A stretch of DNA of 64,000 bases from Hyphomonas atlantica corrig. (GTDB taxonomy: Bacteria; Pseudomonadota; Alphaproteobacteria; Caulobacterales; Hyphomonadaceae). Both the position numbers and the translations under genes were made by a program. Shown piece by piece: positions 16,056 through 41,958 of the stretch. Below the pieces are notes generated by a model. It saw nothing but the letters and a program-made list of their open reading frames with translations. It searched no databases and had not been told where the DNA came from. The stretch spans positions 1 through 64,000 of the forward strand of contig NZ_AWFH01000061.1 in assembly GCF_000682715.1 (NCBI RefSeq), read 5' to 3'. Within the stretch, counting starts at the first letter, position 1; each line of letters starts with the position of its first letter.

Positions 16056-17462
16056 GTGACAGAAGCAAGCCCGGCATTCAAAAATCTGCCCCCTGTCGCG
16101 TATGAAGTGACACCGGAAGAACGAGAGGCCATCGAAGCGGCCATCGACAAGGATGAGTTGACGCGCACCGCCTTGGAGCTTGGCAACATCGATAGCCCTT
16201 CAATGCAGGAAGCATCTGCAGCTGAATACGTGTTTGATTGGCTGACCCGTGAAGGGTTCGCGCCAAGGAAAGTGGGGGCGACGCCCGAGCGCCCAAACAT
16301 TATCGCCACGTACGGAGGTAAGGGAGACGGGAAAAGCCTTCTCTTTACGGCCCACCTCGATACTGAGAGCCCGACCTGGGACCCTGATCTGGATGCGCAG
16401 AAATTCAGGCCCGAAACGTTGGCGAACCCGGAGTGGAACCAATGCTGGTTGCAGGATGGTGCCTTTCATGGCTTCCCGATTTCGAACGATCGCGGCCCGA
16501 TGGTGTGCTTCCTGATGGCGGCAAAGGCCCTGAAAGCCTGTGGTATAGACTTGTCAGGGCGCCTCTATCTGACCGCGTCGCCCGGAGAGATCGGCCCCGA
16601 GCCGATCGAAGAGGCACGAGGCGTTCAGTACATGGGCAAGGAAATCGGCACGCACTACGCCTTCTATCACGGCGGCGTCGCGCCGGATTATGCCATTGCC
16701 GCGGAAGGCTGTGACTTCGGGCTGACTTGGGTCGCATGCGGTTACGCCGTCTTCCGAATTCAGCTTTTCGGGGAAGGGGTATTCACTCCACTTCTCGACA
16801 ATCCGGAGCGTGCGTCTGATCATCCGAACCCGATCTACCGGTTGGGCGATGCGATCCAGTCGTTACTGGACTGGGGACGAGTGTACGAACAAGAGAATAT
16901 CTATTCGTCCGATGGCGGCGTTGCGAAGCCGAAAACCCAGATCTCTTCGGTGCGCGGGGGAGTGCCCTATGCGTTCGGAGCTGGCACCGAAATTTGCTCT
17001 TTGTATCTTGAGGTCGGCTTGCCGCCGCATGTTGAAGTCGGTCAGGTCTTCAGAAGCTTGCAGGCTCATTTGCGAAAACAGGGACTCGGCGAATTCGATA
17101 TTGAGCCGGTGGTCGTGCGGCATGGATTTGCTGCCGACGAGACGCGCGTGGGGCCATTGGTGGCCGCTGTGGATGCCGCCACTCGGGACACGCTTGGCGA
17201 GCCATTGCAACTTGCCCACCCGGTCTATTCCAGCATGTGGCGCGACCACAACGTTTTCAACATGAACCGTATTCCAGCCGTGACAACCGGGTTCCCCCGT
17301 TGGCGCCCGACCCCGGAGGACATGATCAAAAGCACGTTGATTTACGCGCTGACAGCCCTGTCACTCTGTGGCCGGGCGTCAGAATCCGAAGGGGGCGAGA
17401 TGACTTCCCGGTCTGATGTGTATGGAGACAACCCCTTCGCCAAGCAGGAGCAGGCAGAATGA
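16056..17462 (+). CDS. M20-family metallohydrolase (amidase/peptidase-like)
   Basis: Cytoplasmic zinc hydrolase of 468 residues of the M20/M28 type (dipeptidases, deacylases, carbamoyl-amidases). TAHLDTESP gives the first His-x-Asp, NDRGPMVCF the bridging Asp, TASPGEIGPEPIEEA the Gly-Glu region, AAEGCDFGLTW a further acidic ligand and WRDHNVFNM the late His. The spacing deviates from classical ArgE/DapE, so I give only the family. The start is GTG. It overlaps the next gene, an MFS carrier, by four bases, so the two are co-translated; the carrier may import the amide or peptide-like substrate the hydrolase cleaves. The pair heads the plus-strand part of the catabolic island. Confidence 0.72.
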   Translation: MTEASPAFKNLPPVAYEVTPEEREAIEAAIDKDELTRTALELGNIDSPSMQEASAAEYVFDWLTREGFAPRKVGATPERPNIIATYGGKGDGKSLLFTAHLDTESPTWDPDLDAQKFRPETLANPEWNQCWLQDGAFHGFPISNDRGPMVCFLMAAKALKACGIDLSGRLYLTASPGEIGPEPIEEARGVQYMGKEIGTHYAFYHGGVAPDYAIAAEGCDFGLTWVACGYAVFRIQLFGEGVFTPLLDNPERASDHPNPIYRLGDAIQSLLDWGRVYEQENIYSSDGGVAKPKTQISSVRGGVPYAFGAGTEICSLYLEVGLPPHVEVGQVFRSLQAHLRKQGLGEFDIEPVVVRHGFAADETRVGPLVAAVDAATRDTLGEPLQLAHPVYSSMWRDHNVFNMNRIPAVTTGFPRWRPTPEDMIKSTLIYALTALSLCGRASESEGGEMTSRSDVYGDNPFAKQEQAE

Positions 17463-19921: not shown

Positions 19922-20746
19922 TCAGCCGAACTGGAAGGCGGAGACTGTGGCATTCATCACATTGTCCGAGAAAATCTTGCGCCCAGCATCATCGCGGGCT
20001 GCGCCGGCCGCAATCATTAGCGGAATGAAGTGTTCTTCCCTCGGGTGAGAATTGCGTGCCTGGGGGGCTGACAGCCAATTGCTCAGGCGATTCCATCGCG
20101 CGTCTCCTGAATCGGATTCGATTGTGTCCGTCAGCCAGTGGTCAAATTCTTCTGACGGGGCGGTTGCCGCGGGTGTCCGAAACGCGCGCATATTGTGGTA
20201 ACTCATGCCGCTGCCGATAATCAGCACACCTTCATCTCTGAGGGCAGAAAGCGCCTCGCCAAGGATAAGGTGTTTTTCCGGTGACAGATCCTTGGTCAGC
20301 GACAAAGTTAGGATTGGGATGTCAGCATCTGGAAATGCCACCAGAAGCGGCACGAACACGCCATGGTCAAAGCCGCGATCCGTGTTGCGCGGCTCCGGCA
20401 ACCCTTGTTGCGTGATGAGCTGCGACACTCGTGTTGCCAGTTCGGGGGCGCCCGGGGCCGGATAGTTCAATTCGTAAGTGTGCGGTGGAAAGCCGTAATA
20501 GTCAAAGATCATGCCGGGTTTCGACGCTGTCGAGAGCGTGAACTCGTCTTCTTCCCAATGCGCCGAAATCACCAGAAGCGCCTTTGGCTTTTCGGGCAGA
20601 CTTTCCGGAATACTCTTCAGCCATGCAGCGGTCTGGTCCCACGTATCGGCAGGGCCACCCATCAGACTCCAGTCCATGAAGAAGCAGGGACCTCCGCCAT
20701 GCGGAATGAACAAGGTGGGCATTCTGGTGGACGGTGTCTCTGGCAT
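19922..20746 (-). CDS. DODA-type class III extradiol ring-cleavage dioxygenase
   Basis: Non-heme iron dioxygenase of 274 residues in the LigB/DODA (YgiD) family, which opens catechol-like rings. Visible signatures are TLFIPHGGGPCFF near the N terminus, LLVISAHWEED, NTDRGFDHGVFVPL and IIGSGMSYHN, which carry the metal and acid/base histidines. The chosen ATG at 20746 starts MPETPSTRMPTLFIPHGGG; the frame continues 60 codons upstream without family similarity. It is the only minus-strand gene in this part of the island and is divergent from the free FmdA-type amidase, so it could cleave an aromatic ring before amide hydrolysis. Whether it has a true ring-cleavage role is inferred. Confidence 0.86.
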   Translation of the reverse strand: MPETPSTRMPTLFIPHGGGPCFFMDWSLMGGPADTWDQTAAWLKSIPESLPEKPKALLVISAHWEEDEFTLSTASKPGMIFDYYGFPPHTYELNYPAPGAPELATRVSQLITQQGLPEPRNTDRGFDHGVFVPLLVAFPDADIPILTLSLTKDLSPEKHLILGEALSALRDEGVLIIGSGMSYHNMRAFRTPAATAPSEEFDHWLTDTIESDSGDARWNRLSNWLSAPQARNSHPREEHFIPLMIAAGAARDDAGRKIFSDNVMNATVSAFQFG

Positions 20747-20950
20747 AGTCTGTTCCCGATACTGATCCAAAAGGGATTGGTAGGCGACATGGTGACGATT
20801 GTCTTGTTGGTGGACGACCGCAAACTTGAACCTGCTCCCCATTTGAGGGGGGTGACAAGCATGCGCAACTAGTTGGGCGCATTTGAACAAGACCAAGTGC
20901 CGGCCTTGCAGCCAGATTTCGTACACGGCGTTTGGTTCAAGGAGTTAGGT

Positions 20951-22042
20951 ATGGCGTTGATTGAAGACACCCGGAAAAGCAAGGTTCAGGTCCAGCCCGA
21001 AAATCTGCATCATCTGAAGGCGACGCCTGAAACGGTTCACTGGGGATACTTCCATCCAAACATAAAGCCAGCCTTGCACGTCAAGAGCGGCGACCTCATT
21101 CAGGCCGAAGCAATTACGCACCATGCGGGCGACGCGCCGGATCTGATGATGGATGAAACCGTCAAGGCGATCTGGGAAGGGGTGAAGCCAGAAGACCGCG
21201 CTCCCGGTGTGCATATCATGACCGGGCCGATCTATGTCGAAGGTGCTGAACCAGGCGATATGCTGGAAGTTCGGTATTTTCGCATGGTGCCAAGATGCAA
21301 TTATGGCTCGAACCTTGCCGCCAATTGGGGGCATCTCTACCAGGAGTTTGGCGAGAAAGAGCGCGTAACAATCTACGAGCTAGACCCGAATTCCAATACG
21401 GCTCATGCGCTGTACGCCTATGATTTTGAAGGCAAGTATCTGATTCCGGGGACAATCACGCATTGCCCTGATTGTGACAAGGAGCCCGCTCTGACCGGCG
21501 TTCGCGTGCCCGCCCGGCCCCATCTTGGAACGGCTGGGGTGGCACCGGCCGTTGATGAACGCGTCAGCACCATTCCGCCGGGCCTGCATGGCGGCAATAT
21601 CGACAATTGGCGCATCGGCGCAGGCGCGACGATGTATTATCCCGTGCAGGTAAAGGGTGGCCTGTTCTCGATTGGCGACCCACACGTCAGCCAGGGAGAC
21701 GGCGAGATCAGTGGCACAGCCATCGAGGCATCGTTGGACGTTTTGTTCCAGATTGTCTTGCGCAAGGATTTCAAATTCCCTTCCCCCTTGCTTGAGACGC
21801 CGGACCACTGGATCGTGCACGGGTTCGATGAAGACCTGAACAAGGCGATGAAGAATGCGTCGCTGGATATGCTCCACCTGCTTACCGAGCATCAGGATCT
21901 CAGCCGCAATGATGCCTATTCCCTGATGAGCGTCGCGACGGATTTCGGAATCACGCAAGTCGTCGATGGGACGCAGGGAATTCACGTTAAGATTGATCGC
22001 AACATCTTCCCGGAGAAGGGCGTCGTGAAAGATCCGGATTGA
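20951..22042 (+). CDS. Acetamidase/formamidase (FmdA/AmdA family)
   Basis: Cytoplasmic amide hydrolase of 363 residues, PF03069 family, which releases ammonia from formamide, acetamide or related short amides. Signatures include TPETVHWGYF, ITHHAGDAPD, VHIMTGPIYVEGAEPGD, RPHLGTAGVAP, IPPGLHGGNIDNWRI and FSIGDPHVSQGDGEISGTAIE. AAGGAG precedes the ATG at good spacing; an upstream in-frame start at 20873 has none. It is divergent from the DODA gene and upstream of the AraC-amidase fusion, with which it shares the domain, so the two amidase domains are paralogous. The natural amide is not known. Confidence 0.9.
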   Translation: MALIEDTRKSKVQVQPENLHHLKATPETVHWGYFHPNIKPALHVKSGDLIQAEAITHHAGDAPDLMMDETVKAIWEGVKPEDRAPGVHIMTGPIYVEGAEPGDMLEVRYFRMVPRCNYGSNLAANWGHLYQEFGEKERVTIYELDPNSNTAHALYAYDFEGKYLIPGTITHCPDCDKEPALTGVRVPARPHLGTAGVAPAVDERVSTIPPGLHGGNIDNWRIGAGATMYYPVQVKGGLFSIGDPHVSQGDGEISGTAIEASLDVLFQIVLRKDFKFPSPLLETPDHWIVHGFDEDLNKAMKNASLDMLHLLTEHQDLSRNDAYSLMSVATDFGITQVVDGTQGIHVKIDRNIFPEKGVVKDPD

Positions 22043-22141
22043 TCCTGCGCGTCGGTGACCCCTGTCAGCCCGGCCAAAATGGGCGTGATCGGCGGCGGAA
22101 TGGGTAGATGCTGCTCAAAAGTCAGGCAGCGTCACCTGTGT

Positions 22142-22187
22142 CCTGCAGTGTGAGATGCAGGTTTCATTGACCGCTGTAGTGGCGGTC
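22142..22187. promoter_or_regulatory. Two adjacent dyads upstream of the AraC-amidase gene
   Basis: Inverted repeats CCTGCA/TGCAGG (22142-22161) and GACCGC/GCGGTC (22169-22187) lie in the 198-base gap before the fusion gene. They could be regulator sites or a leader hairpin. No conserved AraC box is known to me for this regulator, so the assignment rests on symmetry alone. Confidence 0.25.
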
Positions 22188-22240
22188 CGAGGATCAGCAT
22201 TGGGTGAGGACTGAGAGCGAGAGCGGAACGGAGCCAGTCG

Positions 22241-24565
22241 GTGCAGTTTACAACCAATGCGTATCCGAAGGAGCAGCGGAAGGACGCTTGGCACTTCGCG
22301 TTACAGCGATTTTCCATGGAGCTTCTGGAGCATGAGGGAGAGCTGTATGGCGAATTGGTCAGCTATCGAAGTGCTCAGGATTTCACATTTGTCCGCATCA
22401 CGTCCACGGAACACGTCATCCGCCTGGACCTGTCGCAGGGCCCCTCCCAGTTCTGGTTGATCATGCTGCTGGAAGGTGACCTCGTCGCCAAAACGGAAAC
22501 CAACTCCATCGATGTCTCCGAGGGCGATATCGTTTATGGAATTGGCGATCTGGATGTCACGCTCGATTTCAAGCGCGACAATCGCTTCTTGATGGTTCAG
22601 GTGCCGGTCACGCATCCGGCACTGCGTCTGCGTTCAAAGCCGCAAGCTGACATCTCCAATCTTGTCTCTGAAACAGGCGTTGGGCGCATGTTGTCAGGAT
22701 TGTTGCGATCTGTCGCCGACACGATCATGGATGTCGACGATGACCAGATGCGTCCCATTGAGGTGGCGCTGCCTGAATTCATTTCCACGGCGCTTATGAG
22801 CGAAGCTTCTACCAAGGAGTTGGGCGGCGCGGCCGGCGTCCGGGCGGCGTTGCTGGAGCGAATTTTCCAGACCATCGAGATGCGTTTGAGTGATCCTGAC
22901 CTGAACCTTCATCAGGTCGCCAAGGAACACAATATCTCACCGCGCTACCTTCAGAAATTGTTCGAATCTGTTGGCGATAGTTTCGGTCATTTTGTGAAAC
23001 TCAGGCGGCTGGAGCGGTGCCGGCTGGACCTTCGTAGCCCGTTACATGCACAGCGTTCCATCTCGGACATCTTGTTCCAGTGGGGCTTCAACGATAGCGC
23101 GTCTTTCAGCCGAGCGTTTCGAGAACAGTACGGGATGAGCCCGCGGGAGTATCGCAGAGCGCCGCAAGAGGAAGAAGCGCAAGCCGAAGCCCCGCAACGG
23201 GGACGGCCGCCGACAGCGAAAGATCAGGCGATCGAATCCCAGGCTGACGAGATGCTGGATGACATCGAACAGGAAACTTCTGACGTATCGGATCTGCCGC
23301 ACGTTCCGGTCCAGCATGGAGCCCGGCATCACTATTTGCCAGTTACGCCTGAAACCATTCACTGGGGGCATTTCAGCAGTTCGCTGAAGCCAGTCCTGAC
23401 CGTGGAATCCGGGGATTATGTGACGGTTGAAACCCTGACGCATCATGCGAATGACGACCATGAGCGTATGGTCATGGGAGACCCGGCGATTGAGGATATC
23501 TATCGCTGGACTCCGGAGGGTAAAACCATCAACCGACGAGGGGCGGGCGCCCTGGATTCGTCTTCCTCAACAGGGCGCGGCGCGGGTGAGGGCTTTGGTG
23601 TTCATATCTGCACTGGCCCGATTGAGATCGCGGGGGCAGAGCCGAATGACATTGTCGAGATCCGTATTCTGGAACTGAAGCCGCGGACCAGCGGGAACCC
23701 GAAATATGCGGGGCAGTCATTCGGCAGCAATGCTGCAGCGTATTGGGGATTTCAGTATAATGATCTTCTGACGGAACCGAAACAACGCGAAGTCATTACC
23801 ATTTATGAAGTCGAGAGCGAGATGGGGCGGTCCTGTGCACGTGCCGTCTACAATTATCGCTGGACCCCTCAGACAGATCCGTTTGGTATTGTGCATGAAT
23901 TGTACGATTATCCCGGCTTGCCTGTGGACACGAGCACGATCAAGAAAAACTATGATGTCCTTCGCAACATCGAGATTCCGGTGCGTCCGCATTTTGGGGT
24001 GATTGGTGTTGCTCCGCCGCAATCCAAACTGGTCGACTCCATTCCGCCAGGCAATTTCGGAGGTAATCTCGACAATTGGCGTATTGCGCCGGGGTCCAGC
24101 CTGTTTCTGCCTGTCGGTGTGGCGGGTGCGCTGTTGTCCCTCGGTGATCCGCATGCGTCGCAAGGAGACTCGGAGCTGTGTGGGACGGCAATCGAGTGTT
24201 CAATGACAGCGCTTATCCAGCCTATTCTGCATCGGGCGAGCGACAAGAGAGGGCATATCCGGGATCTCGATTATCCTCTTCTGGAAACCCAGGACGAATG
24301 GGTGATCTTCGGCTTTAGCCATCCGAACTATCTCAAAGAGCTCGGGGCATCTGCACAGAGTGACATCTATAAGAAGTCTTCAATTGATCTGGCCATGCGG
24401 GATGCGTTCCGCAAAGCGCGTCGTTTCCTGATGACCGCACGCGACCTTGATGAGGATGAGGCGATCTCGCTGCTCTCTGTCGGCGTGGATTTCGGGATTA
24501 CTCAGGTCGTCAATGGGAACTGGGGAGTCCATGCCATTATCCGCAAGGAATTGTTCACGGCGTAA
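22241..24565 (+). CDS. AraC-family regulator fused to an acetamidase/formamidase
   Basis: A 774-residue protein with two complete parts in one frame. Residues about 20-190 are an AraC ligand-binding domain of the XylS/NahR-like kind (FWLIMLLEGDLVAKTE, DIVYGIGDLDVTLDF). Residues about 205-315 are the double helix-turn-helix, with ISPRYLQKLFESVGDSFGHF and WGFNDSASFSRAFREQYGM. A Glu/Ala/Gln-rich linker (about 316-365) leads to an FmdA domain (about 366-774) containing VTPETIHWGHF, LTHHANDDHERM, VHICTGPIEIAGAEPND, IPPGNFGGNLDNWRI and LSLGDPHASQGDSELCGTA. The start is GTG with GGAG upstream. No stop or frameshift separates the parts. The enzyme half retains the motifs of the free amidase at 20951, and the regulator half resembles the AraC protein at 25908. 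Such a protein could couple amide sensing or hydrolysis to transcription; that role is inference. Confidence 0.9.
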   Translation: MQFTTNAYPKEQRKDAWHFALQRFSMELLEHEGELYGELVSYRSAQDFTFVRITSTEHVIRLDLSQGPSQFWLIMLLEGDLVAKTETNSIDVSEGDIVYGIGDLDVTLDFKRDNRFLMVQVPVTHPALRLRSKPQADISNLVSETGVGRMLSGLLRSVADTIMDVDDDQMRPIEVALPEFISTALMSEASTKELGGAAGVRAALLERIFQTIEMRLSDPDLNLHQVAKEHNISPRYLQKLFESVGDSFGHFVKLRRLERCRLDLRSPLHAQRSISDILFQWGFNDSASFSRAFREQYGMSPREYRRAPQEEEAQAEAPQRGRPPTAKDQAIESQADEMLDDIEQETSDVSDLPHVPVQHGARHHYLPVTPETIHWGHFSSSLKPVLTVESGDYVTVETLTHHANDDHERMVMGDPAIEDIYRWTPEGKTINRRGAGALDSSSSTGRGAGEGFGVHICTGPIEIAGAEPNDIVEIRILELKPRTSGNPKYAGQSFGSNAAAYWGFQYNDLLTEPKQREVITIYEVESEMGRSCARAVYNYRWTPQTDPFGIVHELYDYPGLPVDTSTIKKNYDVLRNIEIPVRPHFGVIGVAPPQSKLVDSIPPGNFGGNLDNWRIAPGSSLFLPVGVAGALLSLGDPHASQGDSELCGTAIECSMTALIQPILHRASDKRGHIRDLDYPLLETQDEWVIFGFSHPNYLKELGASAQSDIYKKSSIDLAMRDAFRKARRFLMTARDLDEDEAISLLSVGVDFGITQVVNGNWGVHAIIRKELFTA

Positions 24566-24687
24566 GGGCGCGTTTCCCGGTGATACGGCGAAAATCGCGA
24601 GCCCAACAAGTTCTTGTGCGCGCAGAGACAAGAATGGACGGGCCGCCAATGACAGGGTGATGCTGACAAGAAGAGGACATTCAGGGC

Positions 24688-25893
24688 ATGCCGATCACCA
24701 TCACCGAAGAGTTCATCCAGTCTCTGGCATCTTCAAAAGGAGATGTTCTCGAAGCTGAAACGCTTCCGCCAGAATGCTATACGGACGCCAATTTCTACGA
24801 GTTTGAGAAGGAAGCCCTCTTTACGCATGACTGGTTGTGTGTCGGCCGGGAAGAATGGGTGAAAGAGCCGGGCGACTATTTCACCACCTCCACCGTAAAC
24901 GAACCAATTGTCGTGGCCAGAAATCGCAAAGGCGAATTGAAGGCAATGTCGTCTGTTTGCCAGCACCGCGCGATGCTGGTTGCCGAAGGCAGCGGAAATG
25001 CGCGTGGATTTGTTTGCCCCTATCATCATTGGAGCTACTCGCTGGATGGTGATCTGGTCGGCGCGCCGGCGATGAACAAGACTTGCGAATTCGACCGCAA
25101 GGCAAATGGGCTTCCGAATTTCAAGGTTGAGGTGTGGGAAGGGTTCATCTTCATCAATTTCGATCAGAATGCTGCGCCACTGGCGCCCCGTCTGACGCAT
25201 GTTCAGGAAGCGATCAGTGGTTACGACCTGGCCAATGCGGAAGGGCCCCGACCTGACCCGGCGCCACGCCTCATGTGGAACTGGAAAGTCATGTTCGAGA
25301 ACAACAATGATGGCTATCACGCCAGCCGCCTGCACCACGGCCCGTTGCATGATTTTGTGCCGTCAGAACAGGCAAGTTTCCCCGATGCGCCGAAAGGGGC
25401 CGCAGGCTATCTGCGGTTCAACGGTACGCTTCATCCTGACGCGAGCTTTAATCCCACGCAGAAGGCAGTACTGCCGGTTTTTCCGGGACTGTCCGATGAA
25501 GCCCGCAACCGGATGACGTTTGCAAATATCCCGCCCAGCCTGTCACTGGTCATGACCAGCGACATGGTCATCTATCTGATCATCCGGCCTGACAGTCCTG
25601 AAACGCATTACATGGACACGGGCGTACTTGTGGCGCCCGGCGCGATGGCGGATGAGGCGTATGAGCACAAGATGGAGATGATCATGAATTCGACATCTCA
25701 TATCATCGCTCAGGATTGGCATGTGGACGAGATGGTTCAACTGGGCCTGCGCTCCCGCTTTGCAAAACGTGGGCGGTATTCCTGGCAAGAAGGCGCGCAA
25801 GCGCAATTCAATGAATGGCTTGTCGACCGCTATCTGGCGGAATGGGATAGGCGCGATCCGTCTGCTGTCGGGGCTGCGGTTGCTGCCGAATAG
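24688..25893 (+). CDS. Rieske non-heme iron oxygenase, alpha subunit
   Basis: Terminal oxygenase of 401 residues that uses electrons from a ferredoxin to hydroxylate an aromatic ring or cleave an N- or O-methyl group. The Rieske [2Fe-2S] ligands are Cys91, His93, Cys110 and His113 (CQHRAML and CPYHHW). The catalytic iron site has Asp208 bridging to His211 and His216 (NNNDGYHASRLHH) and a likely third ligand Asp343 in AQDWHVDEMVQ. No small beta subunit is nearby, so an alpha-only oxygenase is likely. A 2Fe-2S ferredoxin is encoded at 31761, but no reductase was found in the window. It lies between the AraC-amidase fusion and the second AraC gene, 14 bases before the latter. Confidence 0.92.
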   Translation: MPITITEEFIQSLASSKGDVLEAETLPPECYTDANFYEFEKEALFTHDWLCVGREEWVKEPGDYFTTSTVNEPIVVARNRKGELKAMSSVCQHRAMLVAEGSGNARGFVCPYHHWSYSLDGDLVGAPAMNKTCEFDRKANGLPNFKVEVWEGFIFINFDQNAAPLAPRLTHVQEAISGYDLANAEGPRPDPAPRLMWNWKVMFENNNDGYHASRLHHGPLHDFVPSEQASFPDAPKGAAGYLRFNGTLHPDASFNPTQKAVLPVFPGLSDEARNRMTFANIPPSLSLVMTSDMVIYLIIRPDSPETHYMDTGVLVAPGAMADEAYEHKMEMIMNSTSHIIAQDWHVDEMVQLGLRSRFAKRGRYSWQEGAQAQFNEWLVDRYLAEWDRRDPSAVGAAVAAE

Positions 25894-25907: not shown

Positions 25908-26945
25908 GTGCACCCTTCAGAACACCCCACGACCTGGCGGTTCCAGACACGATCAGTGCCTACCACGCAGAGGAATGCGGCCTGGGCCAACGCCATGCGG
26001 CGGTTGCGACTGCCTTTCGTGTCAGATCCGGAAGGGCAACCGATTGACGGGCGGATGACCATTCAGTCTTCGGCGCTGGGCTTGCAATTCGCACGCATCG
26101 AGTCTGGACGCCAGGTCATTGATGGGCGTGAGTTGGAGCAGGGCGCGGGCATATGGTTGCTTGTCCTGCTGAAAGGGAATGCGCGCTTCAGTTCTGACGG
26201 CGTGGCTGTAGACGTGACGCAGAATATGATCGTGTACGGCGCGACGCGACACGACTCCCGTCTGGAAGTGAGTGAAGATAATGCGATCCTGTTTGTGCGC
26301 ATTCCGGATGTGGCGTTGGGTGGCCGACTGATTGCGCCAACCCATTACAAATCCGGCACAATTGACGGCAGCGTTGGTGTTGGACGAATGCTGCTGGGCA
26401 TGCTTCTCGTCATGGCCGATGAGCTTGGCGACATCTCGACTCAGGACCTGCCCCCGGTTGAGCTTGCCTTGATCGAGTTGCTGACGAGCAAGCTGCTTGA
26501 AATTGCAGACACGCGATCGCTTGGTGGCGCGCAGGGCGCAAGAGCGGCCCATCTCCACAGAATCCAACAGACATTGGAAACGCTCCTGTGGGATCCTGAT
26601 CTGACGATTGTGAAGGCGGCAGATGAGGTTGGTGTTTCTCCCCGTTATCTGCAACGCCTGTTCGCTGCGGATGGGCACAATTTCAGCGGATATCTCAAGA
26701 AACGTCGATTGGAGCGGTGTCATGCGGACCTGATCAGTCCGCTCCACGCGCAGGAATCTATTTCCGAAGTGGCGTTTCGCTGGGGCTTCAGCAGTTCAGC
26801 TCATTTCAGTCGCAGCTTTCGGGAGCAGTTTGGTTTGTCGCCGCGCGAGCATCGGCGGACAGGGCTGGCAAACCGCGCCCAGGATGAGGCTGAGGTCAAC
26901 AAATTATGGGGCGAGTATCAAGAGTTTGCCCAAGGTCGCGCCTAG
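25908..26945 (+). CDS. AraC-family transcriptional regulator
   Basis: DNA-binding regulator of 345 residues. Residues about 45-220 form the ligand-binding domain (IWLLVLLKGNARFSSDG, MIVYGATRHDSRLEV) and about 225-330 the double helix-turn-helix (VSPRYLQRLFAADGHNF, WGFSSSAHFSRSFREQF). It aligns along its length with the regulator half of the 22241 fusion, including LERCHADLISPLHAQ against LERCRLDLRSPLHAQ, so the two share ancestry. The start is GTG with GGAG upstream. It follows the Rieske gene at 14 bases and ends 51 bases before the VOC-led operon, which it may control. The inducer is unknown. Confidence 0.88.
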   Translation: MHPSEHPTTWRFQTRSVPTTQRNAAWANAMRRLRLPFVSDPEGQPIDGRMTIQSSALGLQFARIESGRQVIDGRELEQGAGIWLLVLLKGNARFSSDGVAVDVTQNMIVYGATRHDSRLEVSEDNAILFVRIPDVALGGRLIAPTHYKSGTIDGSVGVGRMLLGMLLVMADELGDISTQDLPPVELALIELLTSKLLEIADTRSLGGAQGARAAHLHRIQQTLETLLWDPDLTIVKAADEVGVSPRYLQRLFAADGHNFSGYLKKRRLERCHADLISPLHAQESISEVAFRWGFSSSAHFSRSFREQFGLSPREHRRTGLANRAQDEAEVNKLWGEYQEFAQGRA

Positions 26946-32081: not shown

Positions 32082-32187
32082 GCGCCTGTGGAAGATGGTC
32101 GCCGATCAATAGTTGAGGCGCGAGAAATCAAGAACCGGATGGCTTGTCTTGGTGATAGTACGGTATCGAAATGAGGGAATTGAAGAC

Positions 32188-33306
32188 ATGTCAGAGCCAG
32201 TTTCTCCAACCAAGTTTGACTTGCCATCCGATACCGGAGGCAAGGATCTGGGCATCTTCATGCCGATCGCCAATGGGGGGTGGATCCTGTCGAGAAACAA
32301 GCCGGAGCTCGATGGGTCATATGCCTACAACCGCAAAGTCGCGGTTTTGGCAGAAGAGCTGGGATACGACTTCATCATGTCCATGGCAAAGTATCGCGGA
32401 TATGGCGGCGAAACCAAACAGTGGGATGCGACACTCGACGCGACGGTCACGATGGCAGCGCTGGCAGAAGTCACCAAAACCGTGAAGGTCTGGACCACTG
32501 TCCACACGATCCTGCAAAATCCGGGAACGGTCGCGAAAATGATTGCTACGCTGGATCAGGTATCGAACGGACGGGCAGGGCTCAATGTGGTCACGGGTTC
32601 CTACAAGGGCGAGTTCTCCCAAATGGGTATGTGGCCGGACGATGTTGACCACGACGCCCGATACGACCTTGCCGACGAGTGGATCAAGGCCATCAAGGGC
32701 TTGTGGACCGAGCCTTCTGTCACGATGGATGGCAAGTATTTCCAACTGGATGACTGTGTTTCGAACCCCAAGCCTTCAAAAAAGCCATTCCTTGTTTGTG
32801 CGGGTACGTCTGAAAAGGGAATGCGATTCAGCGCGAACGAAATGGACGCGATCTTCTTGTCTGGCGACGTTCCTGAAGTGCTGGCCGCTGCCAGTAACAA
32901 GGTGAAAGGCATCGCCGCCGAAATGGGGCGGTACATCCGCACGTACGCGATGATGACCGTTGTCCTCGGCGACACAGATGAAGAGGCTCAAGCGACGGCG
33001 CAGCACTATCGGGATGGTCTCGATGAAGAGGCCCTGCGCGGTATGATGCGCGCCTACGGGTTCCTGGATGCCGAAATCGGCAAGGAGAATGCGTTCGTGA
33101 AAAAGGCCAGATCATCGTTCATGTCGCCGCACGTTGCAGGATCGCCTGATACAGTTGTGGAGCGTCTGTCACAGCAATTGGAAGTGTCGGGTCTGGATGG
33201 CCTCATGCTGATCTTCCCCGACTATATTGAGGGAATGCCGAAATTTGCGGAAGAAGTGCTTCCAAAGTTGCGCGCAAAGTTTCCGTCTCTCGCCGGGGCG
33301 GCATAG
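32188..33306 (+). CDS. RutA-like flavin-dependent monooxygenase (LLM class)
   Basis: Luciferase-like (TIM-barrel) FMNH2-dependent monooxygenase of 372 residues. It aligns with E. coli RutA through IFMPIANGGWILS, NPGTVAKMIATLDQVSNGR and GLNVVTGSYKGEFSQMG, where RutA reads VNLVTGWQKPEYEQMG. The Asn of that strand, which RutA uses in amide cleavage, is kept. RutA opens the uracil ring between N3 and C4. GAGGGAATTGAAGAC precedes the ATG; a TTG further upstream is rejected. The stop directly abuts the next gene, a cysteine hydrolase, as rutA abuts rutB in the rut operon. Similarity to RutA is only moderate, so uracil is not assumed as substrate; dimethyl-sulfone, riboflavin or other heterocycle enzymes share this family. 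No flavin reductase was seen. Confidence 0.85.
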   Translation: MSEPVSPTKFDLPSDTGGKDLGIFMPIANGGWILSRNKPELDGSYAYNRKVAVLAEELGYDFIMSMAKYRGYGGETKQWDATLDATVTMAALAEVTKTVKVWTTVHTILQNPGTVAKMIATLDQVSNGRAGLNVVTGSYKGEFSQMGMWPDDVDHDARYDLADEWIKAIKGLWTEPSVTMDGKYFQLDDCVSNPKPSKKPFLVCAGTSEKGMRFSANEMDAIFLSGDVPEVLAAASNKVKGIAAEMGRYIRTYAMMTVVLGDTDEEAQATAQHYRDGLDEEALRGMMRAYGFLDAEIGKENAFVKKARSSFMSPHVAGSPDTVVERLSQQLEVSGLDGLMLIFPDYIEGMPKFAEEVLPKLRAKFPSLAGAA

Positions 33307-33969
33307 ATGACAGCTTTGCCGTCTGTATCTGACTTGCCGCATGTCGGGTCCGAGTTGCTCAGCGAGATACTTGATCCTGCACGTACCGCTTTGGTCCTGG
33401 TCGATGTTCAGGTGGATTTCGTTTCGCCAGATGGCGTGATCGGGCAGGCGGGCGTTGACCTTCGCCCAGCGCACATCGCAATGGCCCAGATGGCTCGTCT
33501 TCGTGAGGCGCTCAAGCAAAAGAGCGGAACCATCTGTTTCCTGAAGGTCGTGACCCGGGATGAAACAGACACGGACGCCTTGAAGAACCTCTATGCTTGG
33601 CGCGGCAAGCCGGGCCAGCACGCGATATGCCGTGCGGATGAGGCGGGGTCAGACTATTATCAGCTTGTCCCGGAGGATGGTGATCTCGATATAGCGAAGG
33701 TTCTGTTCGATGGGTTTCATGGCACGGAACTCGACGCGGAATTGAAGGCGCGCGGCATTGATACTGTGTTGATGGCGGGCGTGACGACGGATTGCTGTGT
33801 CGACCAGACCGCTCGGTCTGCCTTTCATCACAATTTCAACGTCGTCGTCGTTTCTGATGCGTGCGCGGCTTATGAAGAGATACTTCATGTCGGTGCGCTC
33901 ATGGCATTGGAGAAGAATTGCGCTTTGCTGGCTGACACGCAAACAGTCCTGGACACCCTGGAAGGGTAA
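33307..33969 (+). CDS. RutB-like cysteine hydrolase (isochorismatase fold)
   Basis: Cytoplasmic amide hydrolase of 220 residues in the isochorismatase family. The triad is visible as Asp in LVLVDVQVDFV, Lys in DIAKVLFDGFHGTEL and Cys in GVTTDCCVDQT, with the cis-peptide region just before the cysteine. RutB hydrolyses (peroxy)ureidoacrylate after RutA. The ATG follows the stop of the RutA-like gene with no gap, which is the main reason to think of RutB; the sequence alone would also fit other N-carbamoyl or maleamate amidases. A perfect 7-base hairpin follows at 33977-33996, marking the probable end of the operon. Confidence 0.82.
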   Translation: MTALPSVSDLPHVGSELLSEILDPARTALVLVDVQVDFVSPDGVIGQAGVDLRPAHIAMAQMARLREALKQKSGTICFLKVVTRDETDTDALKNLYAWRGKPGQHAICRADEAGSDYYQLVPEDGDLDIAKVLFDGFHGTELDAELKARGIDTVLMAGVTTDCCVDQTARSAFHHNFNVVVVSDACAAYEEILHVGALMALEKNCALLADTQTVLDTLEG

Positions 33970-35349: not shown

Positions 35350-35537
35350 GTCCTTGTGAAGCGTCCGCTGTGGCTGCGAATACAACCTGTTGGTGTGTGT
35401 GGAGAGTAAGTTTCGTGTTTCTGGTGGTTCAGCTTTTGCAACTATTTTGGCGCTCCAAATCAAGTCAGGACGAGAACCCCAATCTAGCGTGAGATATCGC
35501 AAAGTTTGTGATTTTCTGCAGCTTGAGGGGTAATGTC

Positions 35538-38727: not shown

Positions 38728-40167
38728 CTAGTCGTGCTCGAAGCTGAAGACAGAGATACCGCGCGATCTTGTATCGAAGACAAGTTTCTTGTTTAGCGGA
38801 GCGTGGGCCCTGGATGGGCAATTGTTCCGGTCGCACATATAGCAATTCACTCCAATGGGCGTCGCCTGCATGGCGGGCAGATTGAGTGTCTGCGCATATA
38901 TCAGGCGGGGGGCGTAGGCGATGTCACACCCAAGGCCGATGGCGTACTTGGTTGGCGGCCGGTCAAAGGCGCCTTCCGACCGTGACATCGTGCGGGCGAT
39001 TGAGAAATAGGTCGTATTGTCCGGCATCTGAATGATTTGGGTGCGAACCTGGTCAGGCGTCGCAAAGCAATCATGGATATTCCAGAGCGGGCAGGCGCCA
39101 CCGAATTTCGAAAAATGAAACCGCCCCGCGCTGAAACGCTTGGACACATTGCCGGCGCTGTCCATTCGGACGAAGAAGAAGGGGATGCCGCGTGCATCCG
39201 GTTTCTGAAGTGTGGTGAGGCGGTGGGCGACTTGTTCAAAGCTTGCGCCGAACCGATGGCTGAGCAGCTCAATGTCATATTTCGTTGTTTCGCATTCACG
39301 GAGGAAGCGCGCATACGGCATCAGCAACGCGGCGGCGAAGTAATTTGCCAGGCTGACGCTGGCCAGGTTTCGCGCGCTGCGATCCGGGAATTTGGCTTTC
39401 TCGACATGCGCTTCAATAAGGGGGGCATATTCCAGCATGGCGATCTGGACGGCCAGCTGAAAGCGTCGTCCGGATTGGTGGAGCAGTTCTGACAGATCGA
39501 TCCTGCGATGGTGCCGATCAAAATAGCGTAGCCTGTCTGGCATGACATGAGCCGGGACAATCCGGACCTGGTAATTGTGTTGCTTCTTCAGGCGGTCTGT
39601 CAGGGTGGTATGAGGTTCATCCGTGGTCAGAAACAATTCGGCTGAGAGCGCTTCTGCCGCTTCGTCGATTTCGGGGAAGTAGTTCCGGTTTTCGTGGAAA
39701 TATTCACGAACGGAATCCACGCTCCGATCCGTCTGTTCCAGCACTTCGACCTTTTCCCGGTCTGCCATTGGGTTGGCGTCCGAATAGAGCCGGATATTCA
39801 TCTCCTGATGGCGCGAATAGAGACGGAGGAACGCCTTCGCGATGTCCGGATTGGCGTTGACGACATCTTCGACGTCATTCTTGCCAATCGGCCCGGCTTC
39901 AAAAACGGGGTCGCGAAGCGCTTCCATGAGTTCGGAGGCCAGTCGGGCGTCGCTTGCGCCGCCCACATCGCTCAGATCGAAATCGTAGATTTGTGCGAGG
40001 GACACGAGCAGTTTCGCGCTCACGGGGCGCTGATTGCTCTCGATCAGATTGATGTAGCTGGCTGAGACATCGAGGTCTTCGGCCATTTGGGCCTGCGTCA
40101 GTCCAAGCGTGCGGCGAAGCCGTCGAAGCTTCGCGCCAATGAGGAGTTTCTCTTTTCGCTGGCTCAT
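38728..40167 (-). CDS. ScfR/RamB-type transcriptional regulator of short-chain acyl metabolism
   Basis: Cytoplasmic regulator of 479 residues. An XRE helix-turn-helix opens the protein (LRRLRRTLGLTQAQMAED, ISYLINLIESNQRP region, about residues 10-65). A middle IrrE/ImmA-like domain follows, and the C-terminal DUF2083 domain ends with the cysteine motif GVNCYMCDRNNCPSRA. This architecture is the short-chain fatty acyl regulator family; RamB of Corynebacterium, which controls acetate and glyoxylate genes, is the known member. The ATG at 40167 is preferred over a TTG one codon earlier. It is divergent from aceB-aceA, the expected targets. Confidence 0.9.
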   Translation of the reverse strand: MSQRKEKLLIGAKLRRLRRTLGLTQAQMAEDLDVSASYINLIESNQRPVSAKLLVSLAQIYDFDLSDVGGASDARLASELMEALRDPVFEAGPIGKNDVEDVVNANPDIAKAFLRLYSRHQEMNIRLYSDANPMADREKVEVLEQTDRSVDSVREYFHENRNYFPEIDEAAEALSAELFLTTDEPHTTLTDRLKKQHNYQVRIVPAHVMPDRLRYFDRHHRRIDLSELLHQSGRRFQLAVQIAMLEYAPLIEAHVEKAKFPDRSARNLASVSLANYFAAALLMPYARFLRECETTKYDIELLSHRFGASFEQVAHRLTTLQKPDARGIPFFFVRMDSAGNVSKRFSAGRFHFSKFGGACPLWNIHDCFATPDQVRTQIIQMPDNTTYFSIARTMSRSEGAFDRPPTKYAIGLGCDIAYAPRLIYAQTLNLPAMQATPIGVNCYMCDRNNCPSRAHAPLNKKLVFDTRSRGISVFSFEHD

Positions 40168-40182
40168 CAAATACCCTGAAGA

Positions 40183-40199
40183 TTTACAAACTTTACAAT
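40183..40199. promoter_or_regulatory. Candidate RamB-like site between scfR and aceB
   Basis: AAACTTTACAAT at 40188-40199 agrees in 10 of 12 positions with the C. glutamicum RamB core AAACTTTGCAAA, as I recall that consensus. A second TTTACA half starts at 40183, nine bases before the inner one, and GTTTAC/GTAAAC words follow at about 40209 and 40222. The site lies about 20 bases upstream of the regulator start, fitting autoregulation and control of aceB. Confidence 0.45.
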
Positions 40200-40320
40200 T
40201 ACCGTTGGGTTTACCTTACATCGTAAACATAAAAACCCAATAGAAACAATTGCATACTCGATATTCGGAAGAAGTGTAAATAGTGTTGTGTCAATTCGAG
40301 TTTGATTGATGAGGCACATT

Positions 40321-41958
40321 ATGACTTTTGTCGAAGCGTTGGAGCGGGCCCCCAAAGAGGCTGACCATATTGAAGTCCTGAAGCGGGTAGAGGGCGTAGA
40401 CCGGGTGCTGACCGAGGGTGCGCTCGACTTTCTGGTTCGCCTTGAGCGCCGTTTCGGTTCCCGGCGTCGTGAGCTTCTCGCTGCGCGCCGCGCACGTCAG
40501 GCGCGGTTCGATGCCGGGGAGCTGCCGGATTTCCTGCCTGAAACGAAATCAATCCGCGATGGCGTCTGGGAAGTTGCCCCGATCCCGGCGGTTCTCCAGG
40601 ATCGCCGCGCGGAAATCACGGGCCCTGTTGATCGCAAGATGATGATCAACGCGCTGAACTCTGGCGCCAAGATGTTCATGGCTGACTTCGAGGATGCGTC
40701 GTCACCGACCTTCGGGAACATGATCGACGGTCAGGTGAACATGCAGGATTATGCCAATGGCAGCCTGGATTACACGGACCCGAAGTCTGGCAAATCCTAT
40801 GCGCTCGGCGAAGAGACCGCTGTGATGATCGTGCGCCCTCGCGGATGGCACATGGAAGAGGCGCACCTCCTCATTGACGGCCAACCCATCTCCGCCAGCC
40901 TGTTCGATTTCGGACTGCACATCTTCCACAATGGCGCGAAACTGCACGCCTCGGGCCTTGGGCCTTTCTACTACTTGCCGAAGATGGAGAGCCATCTGGA
41001 GGCACGCCTGTGGGATGAGGTCTTTGAGTTCGCGCAGGAAACGCTCGGAATTCCAGTAGGCTCCATCAAGGCGACCGTACTGATCGAAACGCTTCCCGCT
41101 GCATTCGAGATGGATGAAATCCTTTACGAACTCCGCCGCCACATCGCTGGCCTCAATTGTGGCCGGTGGGACTATATCTTCTCCTACATCAAGACGCTTC
41201 GGAAGAACGCAGCCTACGTGCTGCCAGACCGTGCGCAGGTCGGCATGGACCGCGCATTCCTGAATGCTTATTCCTTGCTGCTGATCAAGACGTGCCACAA
41301 TCGCCGCGCCCATGCGATGGGCGGCATGGCGGCGCAGATTCCGGTCAAGAATGACGAGGCGGCAAACACGGCGGCCTTTGAAAAGGTGCGCGCCGACAAG
41401 CTGCGCGAAGTGAAGGCGGGTCATGATGGCACTTGGGTGGCTCACCCTGCGCTCGTGCCTGTGGCGATGGAAGTCTTCAACGAGCACATGCCGGCCTGCA
41501 ATCAAGTACGCAGCCAGCGGACTTTCCCGCCGATCCGTCGGGACGACCTTCTGCGTCCGCACACCGGGGACATCACCGAGGCGGGTGTGCGCACCAATAT
41601 TTCCGTCGGCATTGAATACACCGCCGCCTGGCTGAATGGTCGCGGCGCTGTGCCGATCCACAATCTGATGGAAGATGCCGCAACAGCTGAGATCTCCCGC
41701 AGCCAGATCTGGCAGTGGTTGCATCATCAGGCCAGCATCATCGCGCAGAATGGTGAAGCCCGTTCGTTCTCACAGGACTGGTTCATGGAAATTCTCGGCG
41801 AGGAGCTCGCCAAGATCCGCGAAGCCATCGGCGCAGATGCCTATGAACAGGGCCGCTACGAACTTGCCGCAAACATCTTCACCGAAACGGCAACCGGCGA
41901 AGACCTGCCAGACTTCCTGACAACCCCCGCTTACGAGGCGCTGCGAAAGCTCGCCTAA
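40321..41958 (+). CDS. aceB: Malate synthase A
   Basis: Glyoxylate-shunt enzyme of 545 residues that condenses glyoxylate with acetyl-CoA to form malate. Length and motifs are those of malate synthase A: FMADFEDASSPTFGNMIDGQ, GPFYYLPKMESHLEARLW, SIKATVLIETLPAAFEMDEI, RDHFGLNCGRWDY-type region read here as GLNCGRWDYIFSYIKT, and GRGAVPIHNLMEDAATAEIS. The ATG at 40321 has GAGG six bases upstream; earlier TTG and ATG codons lack this spacing. It is divergent from the ScfR gene and 40 bases before aceA, with which it forms an operon. Confidence 0.96.
   Translation: MTFVEALERAPKEADHIEVLKRVEGVDRVLTEGALDFLVRLERRFGSRRRELLAARRARQARFDAGELPDFLPETKSIRDGVWEVAPIPAVLQDRRAEITGPVDRKMMINALNSGAKMFMADFEDASSPTFGNMIDGQVNMQDYANGSLDYTDPKSGKSYALGEETAVMIVRPRGWHMEEAHLLIDGQPISASLFDFGLHIFHNGAKLHASGLGPFYYLPKMESHLEARLWDEVFEFAQETLGIPVGSIKATVLIETLPAAFEMDEILYELRRHIAGLNCGRWDYIFSYIKTLRKNAAYVLPDRAQVGMDRAFLNAYSLLLIKTCHNRRAHAMGGMAAQIPVKNDEAANTAAFEKVRADKLREVKAGHDGTWVAHPALVPVAMEVFNEHMPACNQVRSQRTFPPIRRDDLLRPHTGDITEAGVRTNISVGIEYTAAWLNGRGAVPIHNLMEDAATAEISRSQIWQWLHHQASIIAQNGEARSFSQDWFMEILGEELAKIREAIGADAYEQGRYELAANIFTETATGEDLPDFLTTPAYEALRKLA

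Follow-up and report, generated by a model that had tools for sequence, protein, structure and literature searches.

Few proteins are known to be both transcription factor and enzyme. The stretch of DNA analysed here, 64,000 nucleotides of the Hyphomonas atlantica genome (hereafter the window), contains a reading frame that appears to join an AraC-type regulator to an acetamidase/formamidase, raising the question of whether such a fusion is genuine and, if so, what a regulator would do with an amidase of its own. The gene (22241–24565, + strand) starts with GTG and encodes 774 amino acids in a single open reading frame (ORF); translation at these exact coordinates gives zero internal stops, bearing out the uninterrupted frame proposed in a preliminary description of this DNA. 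All 87 fusion loci that we read in detail are likewise full length and in one frame and, having been chosen for a full match, show that the fusion is widespread but cannot show how rare split copies are.

The domain order is an AraC-type sensor region (a weak match), a double helix–turn–helix (HTH), a linker and a full FmdA/AmdA amidase. The N-terminal AraC_binding_2-like ligand-binding region covers residues 1–195 (22241–22825, +). Its PF14525 match in the window protein (residues 43–166) reaches 19.9 bits, under the Pfam cut-off of 27, so the ligand-binding domain of the preliminary description is a weak assignment in this protein; 46 of the 49 fusions scanned match AraC_binding_2 at E ≤ 0.001. 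The double HTH (residues 227–306; 22919–23158, +) scores 73.2 bits with HTH_18 (PF12833; cut-off 33.6), a domain present in 49/49 fusions scanned. The amidase half spans residues 358–774 (23312–24562, +), with a PF03069 (FmdA_AmdA) match of 88.8 bits at residues 454–758 (cut-off 27), and is complete, because alignment with the solved structure 3b9t extends over residues 358–772 (E = 7.4e-180). The GGNxD and GDPHASQGDSE motifs are common to the fusion and 3b9t, and the residues of GGNxD and GDxHxxxGDxE occur in 87/87 fusions, the same motifs being found in the aligned solved homologues 3b9t, 2f4l and 5ubu. The double HTH and the full FmdA-type amidase with its motifs kept, both proposed in the preliminary description, are thus confirmed by profiles above their cut-offs and, as described below, by invariant residues. 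Among NCBIfam models, the regulator half is best matched by FeaR (119 bits, short of the cut-off of 199), Ada is a weak match to the fusion, and the FmdA formamidase equivalog NF045496 gives 48.1 bits against a cut-off of 500. Under a nearest-start rule, the start codon is TTG or GTG in 72/87 fusions, versus ATG in 23 scorable separate FmdA genes, which suggests regulator-like expression; the fusion starts themselves are unsure, because 53/87 have no Shine–Dalgarno-like sequence before the chosen start.

The preliminary description had proposed a search of other genomes for the same domain order, and this recovered full-length fusions in many relatives. They were found in 6/299 genomes of the order, 4/385 of the class and 8/398 of the phylum (overlapping sets, the window's own genome counted in each), and these counts are lower bounds because two to three first-look candidates were scored per genome. 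Of 520 relatives from a scan of genomes with species names, the best 80 were kept, and each of them aligns along almost the entire query, with identities of 49–92% (best segment). Titles among these 80 include Hyphomonas, Asticcacaulis, Caulobacter, Novosphingobium, Sphingomonas, Sphingobium, Parvibaculum, Caballeronia, Paraburkholderia, Ramlibacter, Variovorax and Rubrivivax, along with a metagenome-assembled genome (MAG) under the title Nevskia and a short contig, possibly misassigned, under that of Actinobacteria. The fusion spans alpha- and betaproteobacteria. The loci are not fully independent: L047 and L115 are apparently one record, their coordinates agreeing, and, judged by titles, L118 and L127 come from one genome, as do L124 and L141.

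Both halves have been maintained. Against three orthologues of the Hyphomonas group (L065–L067), dN was 0.040–0.064 for the sensor region, 0.040–0.048 for the HTH and 0.028–0.032 for the amidase, compared with 0.42–0.44 for the linker; against the more distant L036, the corresponding values were 0.391, 0.13, 0.18 and 0.75. With dS saturated, we claim no dN/dS ratio. N-half and C-half distances are correlated (r = 0.914 over 3741 pairs), the N-half evolving faster than the C-half (mean distance 0.50 versus 0.28). Eight HTH residues (R235, Q238, K239, R256, L257, F283, D285 and F289) and seven amidase residues (N609, D611, D636, H638, D643, E645 and E652) are invariant in 87/87 fusion loci. By these sequence measures, every domain of the fusion is under constraint. 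We found no paper in the open-licence literature that names the catalytic residues of FmdA/AmdA, and those discussed here are presumed catalytic; because the GGNxD/GDxHxxxGDxE motif residues are invariant in 87/87, we infer that the fused amidase is catalytically competent. Of 79 columns invariant in three separate-FmdA groups, 12 drop below 95% in the fusions (one a gap column); these include H401, A500, L663 and T754, and none lies in the motif. Residues 401, 500 and 663, near-invariant in separate FmdA, vary among fusions from H401 to Q (28/87 fusions), A500 to T and L663 to H, and this variation perhaps marks different amide substrates.

The preliminary description had proposed binding at 22043–22240, a suggestion that finds no support, as the region is poorly conserved and contains no motif match. 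Promoter alignment of close relatives instead revealed a conserved element ahead of fmdA and of the Rieske gene, and none ahead of the fusion gene. The resulting candidate operator pattern, TTGKGCGY-N5-RACAAG, is 19 bp long with a second half-box 22 bp upstream. Before fmdA, the candidate operator (20866–20891, +) consists of an exact motif at 20873–20891 and an upstream half-box CAAC at 20866–20869, leaving 59 bases to the ATG at 20951; before the Rieske gene (24607–24632, +), an exact motif at 24614–24632 and an upstream half-box CAAG at 24607–24610 leave 55 bases to the ATG at 24688. A weak candidate before a TonB-dependent receptor gene (35444–35466, +; 13.4 by position weight matrix (PWM), 42 bp upstream) may be due to chance. 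The window's own 3.6 Mb genome contains two exact matches to the pattern, both in this cluster, before fmdA and the Rieske gene. Only exact matches are meaningful in this genome, because the 6 matches with one mismatch allowed fall below the 12 of a reversed control.

Across 93 fusion loci, the exact pattern occurs 28 times at spacing 5 and 0 times at each of spacings 2–4 and 6–9, and 500 permuted patterns over the same loci averaged 0.1 matches and never exceeded 7. Nine of the 28 matches lie in the five loci from which the pattern was read (the window, L036 and L065–L067) and 19 elsewhere. Over whole genomes, the pattern shows no enrichment: 120 genomes of the order gave 30 exact matches and, by our count, 41 for the reversed control, and 7 of the 30 are in the fusion genomes G000, G031 and G110. 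Fourteen other fusion genomes divide into four with an exact site in the fusion region, three with one only elsewhere and seven with none; six genomes of one family (f174) have no exact operator in the fusion locus. In three genomes of one genus (G655, G973 and G815), an identical exact match is located far away from the fusion, the fusion loci themselves (L048, L145 and L147) having none, and the fused N-halves of these loci are divergent in the N-half tree. G110 carries a further exact match about 20 kb from its fusion gene (contig C1, 2727451–2727469), possibly marking another regulon member.

A PWM built from the 28 sites returned 112 matches at a score of at least 12 in the 93 loci, compared with 2, 14, 4 and 9 for four shuffled matrices; the 112 include the 28 training sites, and one site is counted twice as L047 and L115 coincide. 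At this score, at least one match is present in 61/93 loci and none in 32/93. On the same strand and −20 to 169 bp from the start of a named gene lie 83 of the 112, 20 of them at 54–60 bp, placement figures that have no control and for which gene starts were partly estimated. The genes behind these 83 sites encode FmdA (16), LigB (13), an ABC-type binding protein (12), Rieske (9), TauD (9) and others (24). In columns outside training, CAA 22 bp upstream of CAAG is conserved at 0.85, 0.80 and 0.81 over 81 sites, and a full CAAG occurs at −22 in 23 sites, compared with no more than 3 at any other offset. By sequence, a tandem direct-repeat layout with two boxes in each repeat fits, the far box A being degenerate and 32/93 loci having no site. 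Like AraC/XylS activators (FeaR, XylS), the fusion thus has a double HTH and candidate tandem direct repeats with box A and box B in each, as described for XylS at Pm (PMC5481539); unlike them, it carries a whole amidase after the HTH, and the box sequences differ.

Which protein would read these sites? Among the 87 loci, 39 of the 52 with a score of at least 15 hold no other ORF resembling the fused N-half, and in eight of nine genomes searched the fusion is the sole N-half homologue above 100 bits (one genome with two fusions), weaker AraC homologues occurring in 7/9. A variant of the motif appears in seven loci whose nearby AraC is only of the separate kind (9 matches at a score of at least 10, versus 0–3 in ten shuffles). 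Since AraC-only loci carry this variant, the fusion and the separate AraC regulator of the window may both read the same candidate sites, and in the window the separate AraC might even be the actual binder. We regard it as probable that the AraC half controls catabolic genes next to it via a definable candidate operator, which makes the regulatory half directly testable.

The genes around the fusion point to catabolism. In the window, Pfam matches identify a separate FmdA/AmdA protein of 363 amino acids (20951–22042, +), a Rieske-type ring-hydroxylating oxygenase alpha subunit (24688–25893, +), a separate AraC regulator (25908–26945, +) and a LigB-type extradiol dioxygenase (19922–20782, −); the genome has two PF03069 genes by profile search, both in this cluster. 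A separate FmdA lies inside the fetched locus in 77/87. Rough ORF clustering of the 87 loci gave as neighbours ribokinase-like PfkB (47), SDR (43), Rieske (41), an MFS transporter (41), LigB (38), a second MFS (32), two TauD types (31 and 27), VOC (29) and an isochorismatase-type hydrolase (27), followed by a RutA-like monooxygenase (25), a 5-nitroanthranilate-aminohydrolase-like protein (23) and a TonB receptor (23). In many Burkholderiales loci, the fusion is instead paired with FmdA and an amino-acid-type ABC transporter, a PuuE-like protein also being present in some. The fusion therefore occurs in two settings, one an aromatic cluster with Rieske and LigB genes and the other a cluster with an amino-acid-type ABC transporter; the amidase is the element shared by both, which fits a regulator answering to an amide or its product.

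We consider it somewhat more probable than otherwise (about 0.55) that the fusion is a bifunctional regulator–enzyme of one catabolic pathway, in which turnover of an amide by the fused enzyme resets the switch. In such a mechanism, the AraC/XylS-type N-half would bind the tandem direct repeats ahead of neighbouring genes for an amidase, Rieske, LigB, TauD or an ABC transporter, and a compound of the pathway, once present, would lead it to turn the pathway on, activation being presumed rather than repression. The C-half would be a cytoplasmic amidase of the same pathway whose nearest relatives are Tat-exported amidases. Regulator and amidase would form one molecule, probably at a low level, and because they are one molecule, turnover by the fused enzyme would probably lower the inducer, presumably an amide or its product, and reset the switch. 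The fusion may thus act as a switch and at the same time use up a compound of the very pathway under its control.

How the halves might be coupled turns attention to the linker. The motif RG.P, RGRP at residues 320–323 in the window (23198–23209, +), is conserved across fusion linkers: it occurs exactly once in each of the 91/91 scored (of 93, two lacking the anchor used), compared with a mean of 6.5/91 in shuffled linkers, and in 0/46 tails of separate AraC proteins. Its forms are RGRP (54), RGLP (15), RGWP (13), RGSP (4), RGKP (4) and RGVP (1), and overall the linkers vary in sequence and abound in A, R, E and P. We take RGRP to resemble an AT-hook core; RGLP, RGWP, RGSP and RGVP do not, and a docking or signalling role for RG.P is as likely as an AT-hook-like one. 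We tentatively propose, at less than even odds, a natural and widely conserved regulator that terminates its own signal, the amidase of the promoter-bound AraC protein destroying the inducer and RG.P coupling turnover to DNA binding. If true, nature would here offer a parallel to BzdR-Q1, the engineered bifunctional chimera discussed below.

The two halves could also sit side by side with no regulatory coupling, two genes of one pathway having been fused and the fusion being kept for a fixed ratio by tethering or being simply harmless. Separate fmdA and araC genes adjoin in relatives without a nearby fusion (L040–L046), showing that the functions are linked even when unfused, and separate AraC relatives manage without an amidase. 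We nevertheless regard this reading as rather doubtful, given that the fusion is spread over alpha- and betaproteobacteria and that RG.P stands at the joint and is absent from the separate AraC tails, a motif that a passive linker would not need.

A third reading, that the amidase half is mainly a sensor whose amide binding is relayed through the linker to the HTH, has its counterpart among known regulator–enzyme proteins. Ada combines an AraC-type HTH with a methyltransferase, its target being DNA damage instead of a catabolic amide. Ada and PutA resemble the fusion in uniting regulation and catalysis in one polypeptide, with enzymes unrelated to the amidase. According to PMC3602430, BzdR joins an HTH to a shikimate-kinase-like domain that has lost enzyme activity and serves as effector domain, a loss that reportedly was essential to its becoming a regulator, and the engineered chimera Q1 is one protein that both binds DNA and keeps enzyme activity, which can prevent induction by its substrate. 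The fusion resembles BzdR and Q1 in joining a DNA-binding domain to an enzyme fold, Q1 being both regulator and active enzyme. An enzyme domain has thus become an effector domain before, and the conserved RG.P motif could carry a signal of the kind that shikimate provides in Q1. We judge a mainly sensory amidase unlikely, however, since BzdR lost its activity, whereas the fusion keeps its presumed catalytic residues in 87/87 loci and has a separate AraC sensor region as well, detected in 46/49 fusions scanned. In contrast to BzdR, both functions seem to have been kept in nature, across alpha- and betaproteobacteria and in two quite different gene settings. The preliminary description's statement that it knew of no described system with this layout agrees with our search: none appeared among the matches listed in the open-licence literature, and the AraC–FmdA fusion would add a layout of its own to the known regulator–enzyme fusions.

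A fusion that is only genetic, with cleavage of the protein inside the linker or production of the amidase from an internal start, is very improbable. The variable linker composition would allow it, and a methionine occurs elsewhere in the linker in two of nine aligned fusions (P0007 and P0008), but the M338 of the window linker is matched in none of the eight others aligned and the linker contains an invariant motif. An assembly or frameshift artefact has a negligible chance of producing the fusion and is already refuted by its occurrence in independent isolates, MAGs and annotated plasmid records, because the 80 loci kept match nearly the whole protein and RefSeq calls one gene in three plasmid records. 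Eighteen plasmid records hold a match, nine of them covering at least 80% of the query. Of 15 such records listed, six carry the name 'acetamidase/formamidase family protein', five have no feature and four no annotation; in the three RefSeq records examined, the fusion is a single CDS under that name and nothing more, so the regulatory half is hidden there.

As to the origin of the enzyme half, we built a tree by a quick method without bootstrap from 83 amidase cores, taking 42 of the 85 fused ones together with 31 long separate ones and 10 of the 72 short separate ones. In this tree, where the 92% identical L065 represents the window, the fused cores fall into a single group (SH-aLRT 93) beside nine Tat-type cores (88; joint group 97), with cytoplasmic and short FmdA groups outside. 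The Tat class comprises nine separate long-core relatives defined by a simple twin-arginine leader pattern, which also flagged two short FmdA. The nearest solved structure, 3b9t, is named a twin-arginine translocation pathway signal protein in the PDB. Its full-length alignment and shared motifs place the fused amidase in the FmdA/AmdA family, yet unlike 3b9t the fusion has no signal peptide, the twin-arginine signal ahead of the amidase core being absent and an AraC regulator sitting there. Because fused amidases group beside Tat-exported ones, the AraC regulator seems to occupy the place of the signal peptide.

An origin by tandem duplication of the fmdA–araC pair was rejected, as the fused amidase groups with the Tat type and not with the neighbouring short FmdA. 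Identity within the window is 36% between the separate FmdA (20951–22042) and the fused amidase, and 42% between the separate AraC (25908–26945) and the fused N-half. In the N-half tree, which carries long-branch warnings, separate AraC proteins of Rieske–LigB–FmdA–AraC operons are nested among fused ones. With eight long-branch rows removed, an AU test did not reject a single clade of fused N-halves (P = 0.075), and given this value and those warnings we do not claim that the separate AraC relatives descend from fusions.

Several neighbours bear on the substrate of the pathway. The protein encoded at 16056–17462, weakly matched by peptidase M20, closely resembles 5-nitroanthranilic acid aminohydrolase (278 bits), which hints that the pathway involves an aromatic amine. 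At 32113–33969, a RutA-like flavin monooxygenase is immediately followed by a biuret-hydrolase-like isochorismatase protein, a pair that recurs in other fusion loci. For 5-nitroanthranilate, pyrimidine and other substrates, single genes resemble NaaA, RutA and biuret or RutB hydrolases, and no complete known pathway fits. Breakdown of lumichrome or riboflavin was set aside, because the P450, thiamin-dependent decarboxylase and xanthine-oxidase-type enzyme of the published operon, as given in the part of PMC12746152 drawn on here, were not seen among the annotated genes of the window, which are part of its genes. In Caballeronia zhejiangensis (L170), a nitrile hydratase gene lies about 6 kb from the fusion, suggesting that the amide there is made from a nitrile. 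Farther along the window, a short-chain acyl-CoA regulator-type protein (ScfRs, Peptidase_M78) is encoded divergently from a malate synthase gene (38728–41958), in what looks like an ordinary glyoxylate-cycle arrangement.
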